Under the pieces are notes generated by a model. It saw only the letters and a list, made by a program, of their open reading frames with translations. It was not told the DNA's origin and did no database searches. Positions 14,504 through 35,576 of a DNA stretch of 39,763 nt are shown one piece after another. Location: positions 1-39,763 of the forward strand of contig CABWZP010000010.1 in the NCBI GenBank assembly GCA_902509965.1. Reading direction: 5' to 3'. The first letter of the stretch is position 1. Every line of letters starts with the position of its first letter. Source of the stretch: an uncultured SAR86 cluster bacterium (lineage in GTDB: Bacteria; Pseudomonadota; Gammaproteobacteria; Magnimaribacterales; D2472). A program made the translations under genes and the position numbers.

Positions 14504-17413
14504 TTATTGACATGCCTCACACTCTGGGTCATCCAAAGAGCATGCTGTTGGTACAGGAGCTGGAGCTCCAAGTTCTTGTTGTGGAGCAGATGCTCCAATT
14601 TTTTGTTGGGCCGCTTGTTCAGCTCCCGCACTCACTGCGTTTAGTTTTCCCTGTTGAACAGTTGATTTTTCAGTTGATGTTGCAGCGATAGATCTTAGGT
14701 AGTAAGTTGTTTTTAAACCCGAATACCAAGCCATTCTATATGTAATATCTAGTTTTTTACCATCTGCATTACCTATATATAAATTTAATGATTGTCCTTG
14801 ATCTATCCATTTTTGCCTTCTACTTGCTGATTCAACTATATATCTTGGCTCAACTTCAAAGGCTGTTGAGAAGAGTTTCTTTACATCATCTGGTATTCTA
14901 GAAATTTGTGACAAGCTTCCTTCATAATATTTTAGATCATTTATCATTACTTCATCCCACAAGCCTAATCCTTTTAACTTGCGAACTAGATGAGGATTAA
15001 CTATTGTAAATTCTCCTGATAAATTAGATTTAACATATAGATTTTGATAAGTTGGCTCTATGGACTGAGTTACTCCGGTAATGTTGGAAATAGTTGCTGT
15101 TGGAGCAATTGCCATTACATTTGAATTTCTCATGCCATCAGATATGACTTTTTTTCTTAATGTTTCCCAGTCCAGTGTTTCAGTTCTATCTACATTTAGA
15201 TATTCATTGCCTCTATTTTCTGCCAGTATTTCTATTGAGTCTTTTGGCAATATTCCTTTACTCCATAAAGAGCCATCAAAAGTTTCATACTTTCCTCTTT
15301 CTTTGGCAAGATCTGAAGAAGCGCTAATTGCGCAATAGCTAATTAGTTCCATGCTCTTATCAGCAAAATTAACTGCTTCATCACTACAGTAAGCTATATT
15401 TTGTTCATATAGAGCATCCTGAAATCCCATCATTCCCAAACCTATTGGTCTATGTTTTAAATTAGAATTTTTAGCTGTATCTACCGAGTAATAATTTATA
15501 TTAATAACATTATCTAGCATCCTAATAGCTGTAGATACTGTTCGTTTTATTTTTTCCTCATCTAGAGCTCCATCTTTCATATGTTTTGCTAAGTTCACTG
15601 AGCCTAGATTGCAAACCGCTATTTCTTCAGCACTTGTATTTAAAGTAATCTCTGTACAAAGGTTAGATGAATGAATTACTCCTGTATGTTGCTGCGGTGA
15701 TCTTAAATTGCATGAATCTTTAAAGGTAATCCAAGGATGACCTGTTTCAAAAAGCATCGTAAGCATTTTTCTCCACAGTTCTTTTGCAGGAATTGATTTA
15801 GCTTGATCCATTTCTCCAGCTTCAGCCTTTCTTTCATATTCTTCATATTTTTTTTCAAAGTCTTTACCAATTAAATCATGAAGTTCTGGTGTTTCACCTG
15901 GTGAGAAGAGAGTCCAATTCTTATCTTGCTCAACTCTTTTCATGAATAGATCAGGTACCCAGTTAGCTGTATTCATGTCATGAGTTCTTCTTCTTTCATC
16001 ACCAGTGTTTTTTCTTAATTCTAGGAATTCTTCAATATCTAAATGCCAGGTTTCTAGATAAGCACACATAGCACCTTTCCTCTTTCCGCCTTGATTAACT
16101 GCAACTGCTGTATCATTTGCTACTTTTAAAAATGGCACCACACCCTGACTTTTACCATTAGTTCCTTTTATGTATGAGTTCATAGCCCTTACAGAGGTCC
16201 AGTCATTACCAAGACCTCCTGCCCATTTTGATAAAAGCGCATTATCTTTCATTGCACCAAAAATTCCATCCAAGTCATCTGGGATCGTTGTTAAATAACA
16301 AGAAGACAATTGAGGCCTTTTTGTACCTGAGTTAAATAAAGTGGGTGTAGAGCTCATATAATCGAAACTTGATAATAGTTTATAGAACTCAATTGCTCTT
16401 TCTTCTCTATTTTCTTCTTCAACTGCAAGACCCATTGCAACTCTCATAAAAAATACTTGAGGTAACTCATATCTAACATCATCACAATGAATAAAATATC
16501 TGTCATATAAGGTTTGAAGACCTAAATATGTAAATTGATTATCTCTCGTATAGTCTAAAGCTGACCCTAATTTTTTTAGATCAAATGTCTTCAGTTCTGG
16601 ACTCAATATATCTAATTCAATACCTTTATCTATGTATGCCTCTAAGGCTTGAGGATAATATTTTTCCATTTCTTGATACGTGGCCTCTTCAGCAACTCCA
16701 AGGAAACCAAGAGCTTCATTCCTGATTTGATCCATAAGTATTCTTGCAGTAACAAATGAATAGTTTGGCTCTTTTTCTACTTTTGTTCTTGCTGACATAA
16801 CAAGACTTGTTCGCATATCCGATATTGAAACTCCGTCGTAAAGATTTTTTAATGCTTCTTCTAATACCTCGTTCATTGATACTTCTTCAAGTCCTTCACA
16901 TGCATCATTTATTAAGGCTGCTACTTTATCAATATCAAGAGCGACGAGTGTTCCGTCTGTTTTTGTTATATTTATTTCAGGCCTGTTTGGTATATCAATT
17001 ACTGGTGCTTCTTTTTTTCTTTCCTGTGTTCTTTCTTCTCTGTATAGGATATATGTTCTGGCAGCTTTATATTCTTCACTTCTCATTAACTGGAGTTCTA
17101 CTTGATCTTGTATCTCCTCAATGTGCAGAGTTCCACCAGATGGCATTCTTCTTTCAAAAACATCCATAACTTCATCAGTCGTTTTGTTCACTTTTTCATG
17201 TATTCTATCGCTGGCAGCAGCATTGCCAGTTTCTATAGCTAAAAATGCTTTTGTTATGGCAACCTTAATCTTATCGACTTCAAAACTTACAACTTTACCA
17301 TTTCTTTTGATTACCCTTATTTTCCCTGGGGCATTTATCGCCAATTCATTTGCTTGTTTTTGTTGAGTTGCTTGCAGGTTTGTTGTTTCTTGTGTTGTTT
17401 CGTTCAATGACAT
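14504..17413 (-). CDS. nrdA: Ribonucleotide reductase class Ia, alpha subunit
   Basis: Catalytic subunit reducing NDPs to dNDPs, 969 residues. Two ATP-cone domains are visible at about 31-130 and 146-236, an arrangement like pseudomonad NrdA; the cones sense ATP/dATP. Catalytic residues are C372 (SSCYL), N584/C586/E588 (NLCTE) and C601 (VCNLGSVN). The radical-transfer tyrosine pair lies in LKTTYYLRS. The C-terminal tail ends C965-E-A-C968-Q, the thioredoxin/glutaredoxin-reduced pair. An AGGATC-type ribosome binding site lies about 10 nt upstream. The divergent region before it carries NrdR and DnaA boxes. Confidence 0.96.
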
Positions 17414-17551
17414 CTTTTTTTTGATCCTTTGGCTTGTTATTTATTGTCTTTTTTCGTTAAACTTTAATGCGGTTATTTCATTTTTTTCTTGTTGTTACCA
17501 ATGCTTTGTTTACAATCGCATTTATATAGCCGCAGGGTTAATATTACTCAC

Positions 17552-17560
17552 TGTGGATAA
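17552..17560 (-). promoter_or_regulatory. DnaA box (perfect)
   Basis: TGTGGATAA on the + strand, i.e. the consensus TTATCCACA read on the - strand, about 140 bp upstream of nrdA. In E. coli, DnaA binds the nrdAB promoter and links dNTP supply to replication; a similar role is inferred here. Confidence 0.65.
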
Positions 17561-17575
17561 AGAAGCAAGAGGAAA

Positions 17576-17591
17576 ACACAATATATAGTAT
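17576..17591. promoter_or_regulatory. NrdR box 1
   Basis: ACACAATATATAGTAT matches the NrdR consensus acaCwAtATaTwGtgt at 15 of 16 positions. NrdR is the ATP-cone repressor of ribonucleotide reductase genes. It is paired with a second site 13 bp further from nrdA. Confidence 0.75.
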
Positions 17592-17604
17592 ATTTTTTTT
17601 AGAT

Positions 17605-17620
17605 ATACTCTATATAGTGT
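17605..17620. promoter_or_regulatory. NrdR box 2
   Basis: ATACTCTATATAGTGT matches the NrdR consensus at 14 of 16 positions. Centre-to-centre distance to box 1 is 29 bp, near the roughly three-turn (31-32 bp) spacing usual for paired NrdR boxes but slightly shorter. Confidence 0.7.
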
Positions 17621-17650
17621 ATATAGGCTGTTATTGGCTTGTTGATAATT

Positions 17651-17659
17651 TGTGGATAA
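17651..17659 (-). promoter_or_regulatory. DnaA box (perfect), glpK side
   Basis: A second perfect TGTGGATAA (TTATCCACA on the - strand), only 22 bp before the glpK start codon. The two DnaA boxes have the same orientation and flank the two NrdR boxes. It could act on nrdA, on glpK, or on both. Confidence 0.6.
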
Positions 17660-17681
17660 ATTTTTATTTTTTTAGGCATTT

Positions 17682-19181
17682 ATGAAAAAAATTCTTACTA
17701 TAGATCAAGGCACTACAAGCTCTCGTTCAATCATTTTTAATAATTCTTTTGATATTATTAATGAGTCCCAGCAAGAATATGCTCTTTCTTTTCCAAAAGA
17801 TGGTTGGGTTGAAGCTGATGCAGATGATATTTTAAATTCTGTAAAAAAAACCCTTGATTGTGTCATTGAAGCAAGTCTCTCGATATCAGATATTGTGTGT
17901 TGCGGCATTACAAACCAGCGAGAATCTACTGTTATTTGGAACAAGTCCACAGGGAAGGCAATATATCCAGTTATTATTTGGCAAGACAGAAGAACATCCG
18001 AATTTTGCAATTCATTAAAACAAGATAAAACTACTTCTGACATGGTCACTGAAAAAACTGGTCTTTTGGTGGATCCTTATTTTTCGGCAACTAAAATACG
18101 ATGGATTTTAGATAATGTTGATGGTGCAAGAGCTATGGCTAACAATAATGAATTGGCTTTTGGAACTATTGATAGCTTTTTAATTTGGAATCTTTCAAAA
18201 GAAAAAAACCATTTAACAGATATAACAAATGCATCTAGGACTCTTTTATATAATATTAGTTCTCTAGAATGGGATGAAGATCTACTGAATCTCTTTAATA
18301 TACCTAAATCAGTATTGCCAAAGGTTGTATCATCTGATGCGGAGTTTGGAAAGATAGAATTAGGTGATCATACTATTCCAATAACAGGCGTTTTAGGCGA
18401 TCAGCAAAGCGCTCTAGTGGGTCAAAGCTGCTTCGAAAGAGGGGATATGAAAAGCACTTACGGGACAGGCTGCTTCTTAATGGCTAATACAAAAAACGAA
18501 ATATTTAGGTCAAACTCAGGACTCCTTTCAACAATAGCATATAAAATTAATGGTGAGGTTGCTTATGCTGTTGAAGGTAGTATTTTTTCAGCAGGAACCA
18601 TTATTCAATGGTTAAGAGATGAGATGACTTTTTTTAAAGAGTCTTCAGAGAGCGAGAGTTATATATCAGCAGACGGCGAGACCAATAATTTACTTTTTAT
18701 TCCGGCTTTTACAGGGCTAGGTGCTCCTCAATGGAATCCAGATGTTAGAGCTGGTTTTTATGGCATAACCAGAGATACATCAAAACAGGACTTTATCACA
18801 GCAGCATTTAATTCACTTTGTTTTCAAACTAACGAAATATTAAATGCGATGAGAAACGAGGGCTTAGAAATTAAAGGTATGTCTATTGATGGGGGAATGG
18901 CGAATAATTTTACTTTTGCTCAACTTTTAGCAAACATCACTAATACAAATATTTCTATTCCCACCAATACTGAAGCTACAGCTTTGGGAGCAGCAAAGGT
19001 GGCTGCTATTGGTTCTGGGTTAGTTAAAGACATTGAATCACTTGAAAACTTTGATGGGTCAACTGATTTTTCATGTAATCAATCATCATTACATAGAAGA
19101 AATTATATAAAGTGGAGAGAGTATTTAGATATAATCCTTGTCTTAAGCTCAAATTTGAAAAATATTAACTACAAGGACTAA
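17682..19181 (+). CDS. glpK: Glycerol kinase
   Basis: ATP-dependent phosphorylation of glycerol to glycerol-3-phosphate; FGGY kinase of 499 residues, the family's usual size. The N-terminal phosphate loop DQGTTSSRSIIF, CGITNQRES, the WQDRRT segment, LGDQQSALVGQ with the catalytic aspartate, and STYGTGCFLM are all standard for GlpK. Neither glpF nor glpD is nearby. The glycerol may therefore come by diffusion or from lipid turnover, with G3P used for phospholipids or by a dehydrogenase encoded elsewhere. The region before it is shared with divergent nrdA. Confidence 0.95.
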   Translation: MKKILTIDQGTTSSRSIIFNNSFDIINESQQEYALSFPKDGWVEADADDILNSVKKTLDCVIEASLSISDIVCCGITNQRESTVIWNKSTGKAIYPVIIWQDRRTSEFCNSLKQDKTTSDMVTEKTGLLVDPYFSATKIRWILDNVDGARAMANNNELAFGTIDSFLIWNLSKEKNHLTDITNASRTLLYNISSLEWDEDLLNLFNIPKSVLPKVVSSDAEFGKIELGDHTIPITGVLGDQQSALVGQSCFERGDMKSTYGTGCFLMANTKNEIFRSNSGLLSTIAYKINGEVAYAVEGSIFSAGTIIQWLRDEMTFFKESSESESYISADGETNNLLFIPAFTGLGAPQWNPDVRAGFYGITRDTSKQDFITAAFNSLCFQTNEILNAMRNEGLEIKGMSIDGGMANNFTFAQLLANITNTNISIPTNTEATALGAAKVAAIGSGLVKDIESLENFDGSTDFSCNQSSLHRRNYIKWREYLDIILVLSSNLKNINYKD

Positions 19182-19182
19182 T

Positions 19183-20202
19183 ATGAAATACTTATCTTTA
19201 ATCTACTTACTTTTCTCTTTTTCTGTTTTTGCAGATTTTGATGATTATCCTAATATAAGTTCTTATTTAAAAGGAAGTGACATCAATAAAGATAAGGTAT
19301 TTGTTCTTTTAAATAATAAAAGATTGCTTTCAAGAGATTATCACCCCACTTCATTTATCAGAGTAAGAGATGAGTATCCGAAATATTCTAAAACTCTTGT
19401 CAAAAAGGGCATTGAGGGATACGCAGAAATTGGTTTTACAGTAAATGCTGATGGGTCAACTTCAAATCATGTAATACTTAATTCAGAACCAGGAAATTAT
19501 TTTGATAAAGACGCATTGATTGAAGCTAAAGAGCTTCGTTATAGAAAAGATACTAATTCAAACTATATTAATACCAAGGGATCTAATCACAAATATAGGT
19601 TTACTTTTAATTTACCATCAGAGTCTAGAAAGGTTCCTCGCGGGGTCTTTAATTGCATGGAATTAATTTATCAAGATAAATACACAAAAGCCAAGAACTG
19701 CTCAAAAGACAGAGTGAGTATCCATAGAGGTTACACGGTTCCATATGCAATGGCTCTTTATTTCACGAATCAAAAAGAGGAAGCTATAAATATTTTAAAT
19801 AATCTAATAAGAAATCCTGATGAGGAAAGTTTTTATGTTAAAGCATTAACCGCATCAACGTTAACGAATTTCCTATTTGCTCAAAAATCTTATCAAGAAA
19901 TAATAGACCTTGAACCTTACCTGGTTGATATTAGAAAAGTTGGTTATGAAGAATCTTTAATTAACGCTTTTTATTTTCTAGGTGTTTCGAATTTCTATGC
20001 TGATAATACTCTCGATTCTTTGTATTATCTTAAACTTACCCAGCAAGATTCGAACTGTATGGTTTCAGCTATTAATAGTAATGATGACATTAAAGCTACT
20101 AAGGCACAGAGTCTATTTAGACTTGTTCCTGATAGATATTGTTACGGAGATCTTTATAGGAGAACAGAAGAGACCCTAAAGGCAATAGATGCAGTGATCT
20201 AA
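19183..20202 (+). CDS. Secreted TonB C-terminal-domain protein with helical repeat region
   Basis: A 339-residue exported protein. A signal peptide (KYLSLIYLLFSFSVFA, residues 2-17) is followed by a TonB C-terminal-type domain at about 58-125, with GIEGYAEIGFTVNADGS and the FDKDALIEAKELRYRK ending that define this fold. From about residue 150 the sequence is helical and TPR-like (AKNCSKDR, EEAINILNNLI, YQEIIDLEPYLVDIRK). There is no long proline-rich linker, and the only hydrophobic helix is the cleavable-looking signal, so it is probably periplasmic rather than a true energy transducer. It starts 1 bp after glpK. The exact role is unknown. Confidence 0.75.
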   Translation: MKYLSLIYLLFSFSVFADFDDYPNISSYLKGSDINKDKVFVLLNNKRLLSRDYHPTSFIRVRDEYPKYSKTLVKKGIEGYAEIGFTVNADGSTSNHVILNSEPGNYFDKDALIEAKELRYRKDTNSNYINTKGSNHKYRFTFNLPSESRKVPRGVFNCMELIYQDKYTKAKNCSKDRVSIHRGYTVPYAMALYFTNQKEEAINILNNLIRNPDEESFYVKALTASTLTNFLFAQKSYQEIIDLEPYLVDIRKVGYEESLINAFYFLGVSNFYADNTLDSLYYLKLTQQDSNCMVSAINSNDDIKATKAQSLFRLVPDRYCYGDLYRRTEETLKAIDAVI

Positions 20203-20204
20203 AG

Positions 20205-20828
20205 TTAAATTTTTACAATCATTCTAGTGTCGATATCTTGCAGATGTTCAAGACTATGAGTCACAATTATTCCTGGTATATTTAATACTCTTATAGCATC
20301 TTGAATAAGATTCTGTGTTTCAACAATATTCTCTTTATCTAGTCCAGAAAAGGGCTCATCAAATATTAAGGCCTTAGGATGCATAAGTATTGCCCTGGCG
20401 ATAGCAACTCTTTGTTGCTGGCCTCCTGAAAGTTCATGTGGATACTTATCTGTATGACTTTTTAAATTTAATGCATTTAAAACATACTCATCTGTAAGTT
20501 CCATATAATTATTTTTGTATGCATATGTAGCATTCTTATGTGCTGTTAGATGAGGGAATAAAGCATAGTCTTGAAATACATAACCTATTTTTCTTTTTTC
20601 AGGAGCAATAAATTTCTCTGAGGAATTTAAAACATTAGAATTAAGTTTAATCAGTCCATCAGTCGGCTTAAGCAGCCCGGAAATTATATTTAAAAGTGTA
20701 GTTTTTCCACAACCGCTTTCACCCTGAATTACCAGTAAATGACCATTATCAATTTCAAAATTGATGTCGTGAAGTAAATTCTCTTCATTTTTTCTTTTAT
20801 AAAATAGATTTGAAATTAAAAGGCTCAT
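20205..20828 (-). CDS. ABC transporter ATP-binding protein, orphan
   Basis: A single ABC ATPase domain of 207 residues with all motifs intact: Walker A GESGCGKT (36-43), Q-loop Q86, signature LSGGQ (133-137), Walker B ending D157-E158, H-loop H191. It is most like the importer ATPases of the FbpC/PotA/ModC type (VFQDYALFPHLTAHKNATYA), but ends right after the H-loop without the C-terminal TOBE regulatory domain those usually carry. No permease or binding protein is adjacent. Its stop is 2 bp from the convergent upstream gene. The substrate cannot be named. Confidence 0.88.
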   Translation of the reverse strand: MSLLISNLFYKRKNEENLLHDINFEIDNGHLLVIQGESGCGKTTLLNIISGLLKPTDGLIKLNSNVLNSSEKFIAPEKRKIGYVFQDYALFPHLTAHKNATYAYKNNYMELTDEYVLNALNLKSHTDKYPHELSGGQQQRVAIARAILMHPKALIFDEPFSGLDKENIVETQNLIQDAIRVLNIPGIIVTHSLEHLQDIDTRMIVKI

Positions 20829-20923
20829 TTGTCAATAAAAAGTTTCTTATAGTGAGGGTATGTAATAAACTTACCGAAATTAAATATTTGGTTGATAATA
20901 CCAAAGTCTTTCCTTTACTAACA

Positions 20924-22099
20924 ATGTATAAATATAAAATTTTCAATAATATTGCAGAAGATGGTGTTACGGTTCTTAAGAGTCATAATTTTACTACCTC
21001 TGATGATAAGCCTGATGCAATTATTTTAAGAAGTAAGATTTTATCTAGAGATGATCTAAATGAATCGCTTTATTGTATTGGAAGGGCTGGAGCAGGCACC
21101 AATAACATTCCTACAGAGGAAGCCACAAAGCAAGGAGTTGTTGTATTTAATACTCCTGGTGCTAATGCCAATGCAGTAAAAGAGCTTGTAGTTTGCGGGC
21201 TCTTGCTTTCTTCAAGGGGAATTATTCAAGGAAATAATTTTTCAAAGACTTTAAGCGGATTGGATAGTAATTCTTTAAATCTTGCCATGGAAGAACAAAA
21301 AAAGATTTTTAGAGGGACTGAATTAAAAGGAAAAACACTTGGCATCATTGGACTAGGATCCATCGGCTCATTAGTAGCTCAAACTGCACAAAATATGGGC
21401 ATGAATATAATTGGATTTGATCCTCATATCTCAATTGATTCTGCCTGGAGGTTGCCCAAGGAGGTTGAAAAAGCGGAAAGCCTTGAAGATTTATTAAGTT
21501 TGTCTGATTATGTGTCGCTGCACGTTCCATTGGTAGATGCGACAAAAGATCTTTTGTCACTAGATAAATTAAAACATTGCAAAAAAGGAGCCAAAATAAT
21601 CAATCTTTCTAGAGGAGGAATTGTAAATAATAATGATATTATAAAAGCCCTTGATGAAAATATTGTTTCTAATTTCATTACAGACTTCCCAACTCCTGAA
21701 CTCATCACAAGAAGCAATACAGCTCAAGATGTAATTCTCCTTCCTCATTTAGGCGCAAGCACAAAAGAGGCTGAAATAAATTGTGCCTATATGGCATGCG
21801 ATCAAGTTTGCAACTTTTTACTGCATGGAAATATAGTTAACTCCACAAATTTTCCTCCTATAAAACTTGGAAGATCAACTCCTTTTAGGCTTGTTATCAT
21901 TAATAAAAATGAACCAGGAATGATAGGAAAAATTGCAGATGAAATAGCAGCAGCAAATATTAATATTGCTGATATGACAAATAAAAGCAGAGATGAAATA
22001 GCGATCAATCTTATCGATATCAATGATAAGCCCTCTCAGAATCTTATAACAAATCTTCAAGAAATTGATCATGTTTTGAGTGTAAGAATCTGTAATTAA
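20924..22099 (+). CDS. serA: D-3-phosphoglycerate dehydrogenase (SerA-like) with ACT domain
   Basis: Predicted first enzyme of serine synthesis (3-phosphoglycerate to phosphohydroxypyruvate), a D-2-hydroxyacid dehydrogenase of 391 residues. The NAD loop GLGSIG is at 143-148, catalytic R230 in NLSRGG, and H275 in LLPHLGAST. The C-terminal ACT domain (from about 322, LVIINKNEPGMIGKIADEI) would sense serine. The ATG at 20924 is chosen because the protein family begins there (YKYKIFNNI). An in-frame TTG at 20810 would overlap the divergent ABC gene and add non-conserved residues. Length and domain layout fit the short SerA class. Confidence 0.88.
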   Translation: MYKYKIFNNIAEDGVTVLKSHNFTTSDDKPDAIILRSKILSRDDLNESLYCIGRAGAGTNNIPTEEATKQGVVVFNTPGANANAVKELVVCGLLLSSRGIIQGNNFSKTLSGLDSNSLNLAMEEQKKIFRGTELKGKTLGIIGLGSIGSLVAQTAQNMGMNIIGFDPHISIDSAWRLPKEVEKAESLEDLLSLSDYVSLHVPLVDATKDLLSLDKLKHCKKGAKIINLSRGGIVNNNDIIKALDENIVSNFITDFPTPELITRSNTAQDVILLPHLGASTKEAEINCAYMACDQVCNFLLHGNIVNSTNFPPIKLGRSTPFRLVIINKNEPGMIGKIADEIAAANINIADMTNKSRDEIAINLIDINDKPSQNLITNLQEIDHVLSVRICN

Positions 22100-22314
22100 A
22101 TAATCAAAATTTAAAGGATAAAAACTAGTATATTTATGAGCTTAAATAGAGCCAATTTATATACTCTTATACAATAAATTAATTTTCAGTAAAATTAATT
22201 AAAATAATACTTGCCCACAACTAAAAAAAGTGATATTGGGGCATGCTTGAATTTATAAGTTATTATGGCTAATTATTAGTTATATTTACATAAATAACTG
22301 ATATGCAGTAATAA

Positions 22315-22349
22315 ATGCTAATATTGTATAAAAATTAACCAATTAGCAT
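22315..22349. repeat. Inverted repeat, 8-bp arms
   Basis: ATGCTAAT at 22315-22322 and its reverse complement ATTAGCAT at 22342-22349, with a 19-nt loop. It abuts the next hairpin, so the two could form adjacent stems in one transcript. The arms are AT-rich and might be chance. Confidence 0.4.
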
Positions 22350-22373
22350 AAAAGCCTTATTCTAGGGCTTTTA
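22349..22373. terminator. Hairpin, possible weak terminator
   Basis: TAAAAGCC at 22349-22356 pairs with GGCTTTTA at 22366-22373 around a 9-nt loop. The descending arm supplies four U's on either strand, but no long U-tract follows. It may end transcription from serA or be part of a regulatory structure before ung. Confidence 0.35.
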
Positions 22374-22390
22374 CAGTGTAGAATATAAAG

Positions 22391-22399
22391 TTATCCAAT
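22391..22399 (+). promoter_or_regulatory. DnaA-box-like site (imperfect)
   Basis: TTATCCAAT matches the DnaA consensus TTATCCACA at seven of nine positions and is in phase one helical turn (12 bp) before the perfect box at 22403. Confidence 0.45.
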
Positions 22400-22402
22400 A
22401 AG

Positions 22403-22425
22403 TTATCCACAGATTCTGTGGATAA
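22403..22425. promoter_or_regulatory. Palindromic pair of perfect DnaA boxes upstream of ung
   Basis: TTATCCACA at 22403-22411 and TGTGGATAA at 22417-22425 face each other. Together with the bases between them they form a perfect inverted repeat with 11-bp arms and a single central base (22414). The right end is 14 bp before the ung start codon. DnaA binding here is inferred from the consensus match. An effect on ung transcription, or a DnaA-titration or origin-like role, are alternatives. Confidence 0.65.
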
Positions 22426-22439
22426 AAAAAAGGTCATTT

Positions 22440-23129
22440 ATGGAATTTAAACCTCAAAAATTTCTTAACCCAAAGTGGCAACTTTTGTTACAAAAAAGTC
22501 TTATATCTGAGACAACAATTAGCCTCTTTGAAACCTTAAAATCTTACCAAGAACTAGGAAAAAAAATTTACCCAGAAATACCAGATATTTTTAACTCCTT
22601 AAATCTATGTTTACCAGATAAAATTAGTGTTGTGATTATTGGACAAGATCCTTATCACGGAAAAGGCCAGGCAAATGGATTAGCTTTTTCAGTTAATAGT
22701 GGATGTCGAATCCCGCCCTCATTAAGAAATATTTTCATAGAATTGAAGGCAGACTTAAATATTGCAATTTCCAATTGCGGCAATTTAGAGTCATGGGCAA
22801 AGGAGGGCGTTCTTCTTTTAAATACTTGTCTCACAGTTGAGGAATCAAAACCAGGCTCTCACCAAAATATAGGGTGGGAAGAATTTACAGATTATCTTAT
22901 TAAGAAAATTAGCAACAATGGTTATATTGTTTTTATATTATGGGGAGCAAAAGCACATGCCAAAGAAAGTATTATTAACAAAGATAATAATTTGATAATT
23001 AAATCAGCACATCCGTCTCCATTTTCTGCTAAAAGAGGTTTTTTTGGAACCAAGCCTTTTTCTAAGACCAATAAATTTTTAAAGAAAAATAGTAAAAAAG
23101 AAATTAATTGGAATCTTGATATCGAATAA
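22440..23129 (+). CDS. ung: Uracil-DNA glycosylase, family 1
   Basis: Removes uracil from DNA to begin base-excision repair. It is 229 residues, normal for Ung. The water-activating loop is GQDPYHGKGQANGLAFSV, with catalytic D70, and the minor-groove loop HPSPFS has H191. The Y72 that excludes thymine is present. The ATG at 22440 gives the normal N-terminus. Its last 26 bp overlap the end of convergent ygfZ. The promoter region just upstream carries the DnaA-box palindrome. Confidence 0.95.
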   Translation: MEFKPQKFLNPKWQLLLQKSLISETTISLFETLKSYQELGKKIYPEIPDIFNSLNLCLPDKISVVIIGQDPYHGKGQANGLAFSVNSGCRIPPSLRNIFIELKADLNIAISNCGNLESWAKEGVLLLNTCLTVEESKPGSHQNIGWEEFTDYLIKKISNNGYIVFILWGAKAHAKESIINKDNNLIIKSAHPSPFSAKRGFFGTKPFSKTNKFLKKNSKKEINWNLDIE

Positions 23130-35115: not shown

Positions 35116-35139
35116 AATATTTAATAAGGAGATGATCTT

Positions 35140-35307
35140 ATGAATCCATTTGCAATGATGAAAGATGCTAAAAATATGGAAAAAATGCTAAAACCAGCAT
35201 TAGACAAATTTATGAAAGAATCAGGCTTTATTAAGAAAGAGGAGCTAGAGCCTCTAAAAAGAAGAGTAGCTGAACTAGAAGCCGAGGTAGCTAAGCTAAA
35301 AAGCTAA
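35140..35307 (+). CDS. Small coiled-coil protein, UbiK/BMFP-like
   Basis: A 55-residue protein: MNPFAMMKDAKNMEKMLKPA then a charged helix ending in a heptad-rich coiled coil (LEPLKRRVAELEAEVAKLKS). The ribosome binding site TAAGGAG at 35124-35130 lies 9 nt before the ATG and is the strongest in the window, which supports it as real. The C-terminal half (GFIKKEELEPLKRRVAELEAEV) is laid out like the end of UbiK/YqiC proteins, where a REEF-type segment precedes a trimeric coiled coil. The family call is tentative. It overlaps the open frame of the next gene. Confidence 0.65.
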   Translation: MNPFAMMKDAKNMEKMLKPALDKFMKESGFIKKEELEPLKRRVAELEAEVAKLKS

Positions 35308-35357
35308 GTTATTTTTCTATCAAGCTAGATCCCTCAGATATTTCTCGCATTATTGAA

Positions 35358-35576
35358 ATGGCATGGGAGGACAGAACTCCATTTGATGCTATAGAGGCAA
35401 CTTATGGGTTAAATCAAAATCAAGTTGAAGACCTAATGCGGGATAATCTCAAAAAAACTAGTTATGTGGTTTGGAGAAAGAGAGCTCAGGGACGAAAAAC
35501 TAAACATGTTGGTTTGAGAGAATTTGGCAAAGTTGGAAGACATCATTCATATGATCAACACAAGCATAGAAAGTAA
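35358..35576 (+). CDS. TIGR03643 / DUF2805 family protein
   Basis: Small basic protein of unknown function, 72 residues from the first ATG. EMAWEDRTPFDAIEATYGL, a helix-turn-helix-like VEDLMRDNLK, and VVWRKRAQGRKTKH are the family hallmarks. The conserved sequence seems to begin upstream of this ATG: the frame is open from 35295 and reads LDPSDISRIIEMAWEDRT, but holds no ATG, GTG, TTG or CTG. Either an unusual start (ATC/ATT), a frameshift from the preceding gene, or a sequence error is needed for the longer form. No ribosome binding site precedes the ATG at 35358. Confidence 0.75.
   Translation: MAWEDRTPFDAIEATYGLNQNQVEDLMRDNLKKTSYVVWRKRAQGRKTKHVGLREFGKVGRHHSYDQHKHRK

Follow-up and report, generated by a model that had tools for sequence, protein, structure and literature searches.

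The window analyzed here is the whole of a 39,763-nucleotide contig (G000:C10) from the 1.08-Mb draft genome of an uncultured SAR86 cluster bacterium, and the part of it that concerns us is the 340 bp intergenic gap between the end of a dehydrogenase gene (22099) and the start of ung, the uracil-DNA glycosylase gene (22440-23129, plus strand; NCBIfam TIGR00628 and other models above their cut-offs, Pfam PF03167). The initial annotation of this DNA had rightly described the gap as A+T-rich (78% A+T over 22100-22390), whereas its being “the longest in the window” is doubtful, as positions 35116-35523 are likewise without a listed ORF of at least 80 aa.

Anatomy of the pre-ung element

Directly before ung lie two perfect DnaA boxes facing each other, both reading TTATCCACA: box I (22417-22425, minus strand), which is the one nearest to ung, and box II (22403-22411, plus strand), 14 bp start-to-start from it. 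Both are invariant across the aligned SAR86 set, and the inverted-repeat arms that they form (TTATCCACAGA and TCTGTGGATAA) are 11 bp long, 1 nt apart and 100% complementary, exactly as first noticed. The weaker third box reported ahead of them is also present (box III, TTATCCAAT, 22391-22399, plus strand), in the orientation of box II and 12 bp start-to-start before it; its TTATCCA portion is strongly conserved in SAR86, with TTTTCCC found in the family designated f4. Beyond box III, the IHF and Fis consensus sequences taken from the work on E. coli DARS2 (PMC4245941) locate a Fis-binding consensus (GnnYAnnnnnTRnnC; GTATAAAAATTAACC, 22326-22340, unstranded) 50 bp past the box and an IHF-binding-like site (TAAATAACTGATA, 22291-22303, plus strand; one mismatch to TAAnnnnTTGATW) 87 bp past it. 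The element, a non-coding, single-copy and presumed control site of about 135 bp (22291-22425), comprises, in this order, the IHF site, the Fis site and boxes III, II and I.

The three-box pattern matches once in the window and not at all in 100 dinucleotide shuffles of it. Perfect TTATCCACA boxes, when counted throughout the genome, number 10, six of which fall on this 39.8-kb contig (binomial P about 5e-7): two at the palindrome, two before nrdA and two within genes. A scan of the pre-ung gap against Rfam gave two sub-threshold matches only, and hence no small RNA or riboswitch, and a scan of the same gap for intrinsic terminators gave none.

Conservation in the SAR86 order

Conservation of the palindrome upstream of ung in relatives, proposed at first as a check, is borne out across the whole order: it was found in 161 of 203 genomes (35 of 40 among those with a completeness of 90% or more), in exactly one copy in nearly all of the positive ones, and through four families, with the reversed pattern giving no match among the same 203 genomes. 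Some of the palindrome-negative genomes hold a diverged copy (e.g., G052 and G037). The core stands immediately upstream of ung in every SAR86 locus with a readable ung, at a distance from the start of the gene that varies between nearly 0 and some 78 bp while the core geometry stays constant.

Among named records, the relatives carrying the pattern are SAR86 cluster bacteria, and 112 of the 118 named loci have box I pointing to ung. The six exceptions are one locus in Hydromonas, one in a contig filed as Hydrogenothermaceae and four in which the retrieved sequence ends at the core (three of them SAR86 by title and one from a MAG titled Dehalococcoidia). Each of the non-SAR86 titles merits a remark of its own: Hydromonas duriensis, a betaproteobacterium, carries a DARS-type core that is intergenic and away from ung (L373:4354); the “Hydrogenothermaceae” contig has a dense array of TTATCCACA in both directions (L320:6000-6181), possibly an origin; and the “Dehalococcoidia” contig (PACM01000006.1, L349:181) has a SAR86-type core and is possibly a mis-binned SAR86 contig.

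Core geometry in E. coli and across the Gammaproteobacteria

The core of a DnaA-reactivating sequence (DARS) has been defined as three boxes, with box I opposed and with equal spacing at DARS1 and DARS2 (PMC5742627), of which the head-to-head pair is essential and box III stimulatory (PMC10380432). Written on its minus strand, the core in the window reads TTATCCACA-N5-TGTGGATAA-N3-ATTGGATAA, next to TTATCCACT-N5-TGTGGATAA-N3-TGTGTATTA for E. coli DARS1 and TTATTCACC-N5-TGTGGATAG-N3-TGTGAAGAA for DARS2, so that box orientation and the start-to-start spacings of 14 and 12 bp are identical in all three. The same three-box geometry occurs in 160 of 232 sampled Gammaproteobacteria, falls to 1 of 232 when a single base is added to the first spacer, and has no reversed counterpart in a search of those 232 genomes; judging by 160 versus 1, the geometry is under selection across the class.

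Outside SAR86, 14 of 50 core loci lie directly upstream of priA, all with box I towards the gene (L154, L155, L165, L167, L168, L172, L175, L177, L178, L234, L237, L238, L239 and L246), and ung is the neighbor in none of the 50. As the E. coli DARS sites neighbor uvrB and mutH (PMC11317965), several DARS cores precede genes for DNA repair or replication restart, namely uvrB, mutH, priA and ung.

Fis and IHF sites flanking the core

Fis and IHF sites occupy fixed places, both on the box-III side. A perfect Fis consensus recurs at the same position in all 24 loci of SAR86 family f1 and all 35 of family f3, and an IHF site with at most one mismatch in 21 of the 24 and in all 35; among the named SAR86 loci, such an IHF site lies 80-100 bp from box III in 107 of 112 (the SAR86 site being placed 84-87 bp past the box) and a perfect Fis site 46-54 bp from it in 96 of 112, although loci within one order are not independent of each other. 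At random positions in the window, the respective chance levels are about 1% (IHF, at most one mismatch) and about 0.2% (perfect Fis). The 49 cores from other Gammaproteobacteria, which span many families, have an IHF site at 82-90 bp in 29 cases, a Fis site with no more than one mismatch at 48-53 bp in 37 and both in 25, whereas the mirrored control on the box-I side of the very same cores yields 0, 5 and 0.

With the same consensus sequences, E. coli DARS2 shows IHF sites at 59 and 75 bp and a Fis site at 111 bp from box III, which agrees with the published FBS2-3 and IBS1-2, the latter two separated by 3 bp (PMC4245941). The SAR86 order of core, Fis and IHF (50 and 87 bp) is therefore unlike the core, IHF and Fis order of E. 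coli. Of the features that mark the DARS2 subtype, the pre-ung element has both its IHF and its Fis site beyond box III, but neither the IHF site next to the core nor mutH as a neighbor, and because of these distances we do not file it as a DARS2 ortholog.

A SAR86 family apparently without IHF, and the proteins expected to act in trans

In the window genome, IHF alpha and IHF beta are divergent and score under the curated cut-offs, and Fis barely exceeds its own. The eight f4 genomes (G039, G042, G045, G048, G051, G054, G057 and G060), in turn, have one HU-family gene or none, versus two or three in the other SAR86 families, and the only such gene of G042 scores best to HU; f4 thus appears to have lost IHF while retaining at most one HU-family gene. 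In six of seven f4 loci the IHF site, with 3-4 mismatches, is eroded to what random positions give, whereas the Fis site is intact in six of the seven and has one mismatch in the last. That genomes without IHF genes lost the IHF site in six of seven loci and kept the Fis site ties the site to the protein, the exception being G045, an IHF-less genome still bearing an IHF-like site.

The DnaA residues reported as important for DARS are R227 of AID-1, D269 of sensor 1 and L290 of AID-2 (PMC4245941, PMC5742627); the DnaA of the window genome retains R227, D269, R281, R285 and L290, together with the DNA-contact residues that were checked. Two other positions of the same protein (L033:3090-4385) differ from E. 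coli: R245, of the B-motif and involved in single-strand binding, is replaced by Q, and H136, involved in DnaB loading, by Y. Hda was found by family search in G042, and that of the window genome probably falls in an assembly gap; the second DnaA-domain match in the window genome was considered for Hda and rejected on sequence, being read as ZapE/AFG1-like.

Position relative to the replication origin

The possibility of an “origin-like” element, raised at the outset, was confronted with GC skew in four complete relatives from three families (sampled as twenty 20-kb stretches from each genome, of which one in G042 consisted entirely of N), to which two-arm models were fitted and compared in units of n ln SSE ratio. 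An origin placed at the palindrome fits 19-51 units worse than the best one, about equal to a model with no skew at all, whereas an origin placed at dnaA is 0.3-12.7 units off the best; in G038, the best-fit origin lies 150-210 kb before dnaA. Between dnaA and the palindrome lies 26-39% of the chromosome in these relatives, i.e., the site is mid-replichore and away from the skew minimum in all four.

The usual oriC neighbors are, as had been noted, missing around the element: it adjoins none of dnaA, dnaN, mnmG and rpmH, and dnaA-dnaN-recF with rnpA sit on another contig of the window genome. No cluster of at least three consensus boxes (TTWTNCACA) within 300 bp is present at the site. The dnaA intergenic region of the window genome (L033:2913-3090) contains a single perfect DnaA box, at L033:3005.

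Assignment of the element and weighing of the alternatives

The pre-ung element has the three-box core, with box I inverted relative to the other two, at the spacing of DARS1 and DARS2, and is intergenic, off oriC and conserved in chromosomal position, which makes its assignment to the DARS class a strong one; very probably, then, it is a DARS that would turn ADP-DnaA back into ATP-DnaA. This is a class that the initial annotation had left unnamed, and one which the fixed geometry and the Fis and IHF sites fit. Speaking against the assignment are the core-Fis-IHF order unlike that of DARS2, a neighbor that is ung and not uvrB or mutH, the one mismatch in the IHF site of the window and the IHF-like site kept by G045.

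Side by side with DARS2, the SAR86 element shares the identical 14/12 three-box core and its orientation, IHF and Fis on the box-III side and an intergenic location between origin and terminus (PMC4245941, PMC5742627), whereas in DARS2 the IHF sites are nearer to the core and Fis is farther, the reverse of SAR86, and the element precedes mutH with box III facing the gene, unlike the SAR86 one, where box I faces ung. DARS1, upstream of uvrB, has identical core spacing and near-identical boxes, but is not described with IHF or Fis sites, both of which are present and conserved in SAR86. The likeness to E. coli oriC extends to the presence of DnaA boxes and IHF and Fis sites, and that to datA to being non-coding and combining DnaA boxes with an IHF site; oriC, however, differs from the SAR86 site in that the latter is off the skew minimum, has a head-to-head core and is devoid of a cluster of at least three consensus boxes, whereas datA needs its boxes 2, 3 and 7 plus IHF, promotes ATP hydrolysis (PMC5742627) and has Fis outside the described minimal site.

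Both of the regulatory readings proposed at first, a DnaA-controlled ung promoter and a DnaA titration site, may stand as side roles, but neither accounts for the fixed 14/12 head-to-head geometry or for the fixed Fis and IHF sites. That cell-cycle repression or activation of ung by DnaA alone explains the conservation is unlikely, even though the core is directly before ung in all the SAR86 loci tested, E. coli DnaA regulates repair and nucleotide genes, including uvrB at DARS1 (PMC11317965), and these boxes could also serve such control: the same composite with the same spacings precedes unrelated genes elsewhere, often priA and never ung in 50 loci, the distance to the ung start varies within SAR86 around a constant core, and a consensus promoter scan of the region stays at chance level. 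Since the boxes adjoin ung, DnaA bound to them may nevertheless modulate its transcription as a secondary role. We regard as very unlikely a titration or datA-like inactivation site, which the high-affinity boxes and the IHF site would suit, as they do at datA (PMC5742627), because titration predicts no exact spacing, whereas the 14/12 rule is exact, and because a Fis site and a head-to-head pair are described as features of DARS (PMC10380432), datA being set apart by description.

Slightly fainter again are the chances of a relocated, oriC-like chromosomal origin. Several DnaA boxes, an A+T-rich flank, Fis and IHF sites and a single copy per genome would all be expected of it, and the one perfect box in the dnaA intergenic region of the window genome also speaks in its favor, but the skew fits in the four genomes lead us to reject an origin at the palindrome, and the box geometry is of the DARS type and unlike that of oriC (PMC10380432). 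As for a chance palindrome or a functionless remnant, only the A+T-rich setting favors it, and, with no match in the 100 shuffles, conservation through four families refutes it to the point where its probability is next to negligible.

Proposed mechanism and implications

Under the preferred reading, that of a DARS, we infer protein binding, ADP release and a cell-cycle role at the element by analogy with E. coli. Two ADP-DnaA molecules would bind boxes I and II head-to-head, with a third DnaA on box III steadying the complex and Fis and IHF bending the flank; ADP would then be released, and the departing apo-DnaA would bind ATP, so that the recharged ATP-DnaA could set off a further replication round at the true origin, located elsewhere.

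On balance, we lean towards a wider picture in which the commonest gammaproteobacterial DARS consists of the core, Fis at about 51 bp and IHF at about 85 bp, with E. coli DARS2 as a rearranged special case, a single ung-side site in SAR86 and one SAR86 family that has Fis without IHF, making IHF control droppable. To our knowledge, what is understood of DARS comes essentially from E. coli and its close relatives. The literature covered contains no DARS in SAR86 or at ung and no Fis-first order, the original 2009 DARS paper and most subscription papers lying outside this coverage and possibly already reporting part of the class-wide pattern. If true, a base-pair-exact composite in SAR86 and in distant Gammaproteobacteria would make DnaA reactivation general to the class, tiny genomes of slow-growing ocean bacteria included; the composite would also supply a sequence rule for locating DARS sites, and the IHF-less SAR86 family would be a natural test case for the role of IHF at DARS. 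Recurrent placement before uvrB, mutH, priA and ung, furthermore, suggests a testable connection of initiator recharging with repair/restart genes, whose regulation may be involved.

Finally, another set of DnaA boxes is present in the window, upstream of nrdA, where two perfect boxes and one with a single mismatch (17552-17560, 17640-17648 and 17651-17659) form a double box with a 2-bp gap, which we take to resemble the E. coli nrdA site. Most of 12 SAR86 relatives have perfect DnaA boxes ahead of nrdA, which, like ung, is a gene with DnaA boxes; the two genes (17413-22440 in the window) remain no more than about 2-6 kb apart in each of the 12 SAR86 genomes compared.
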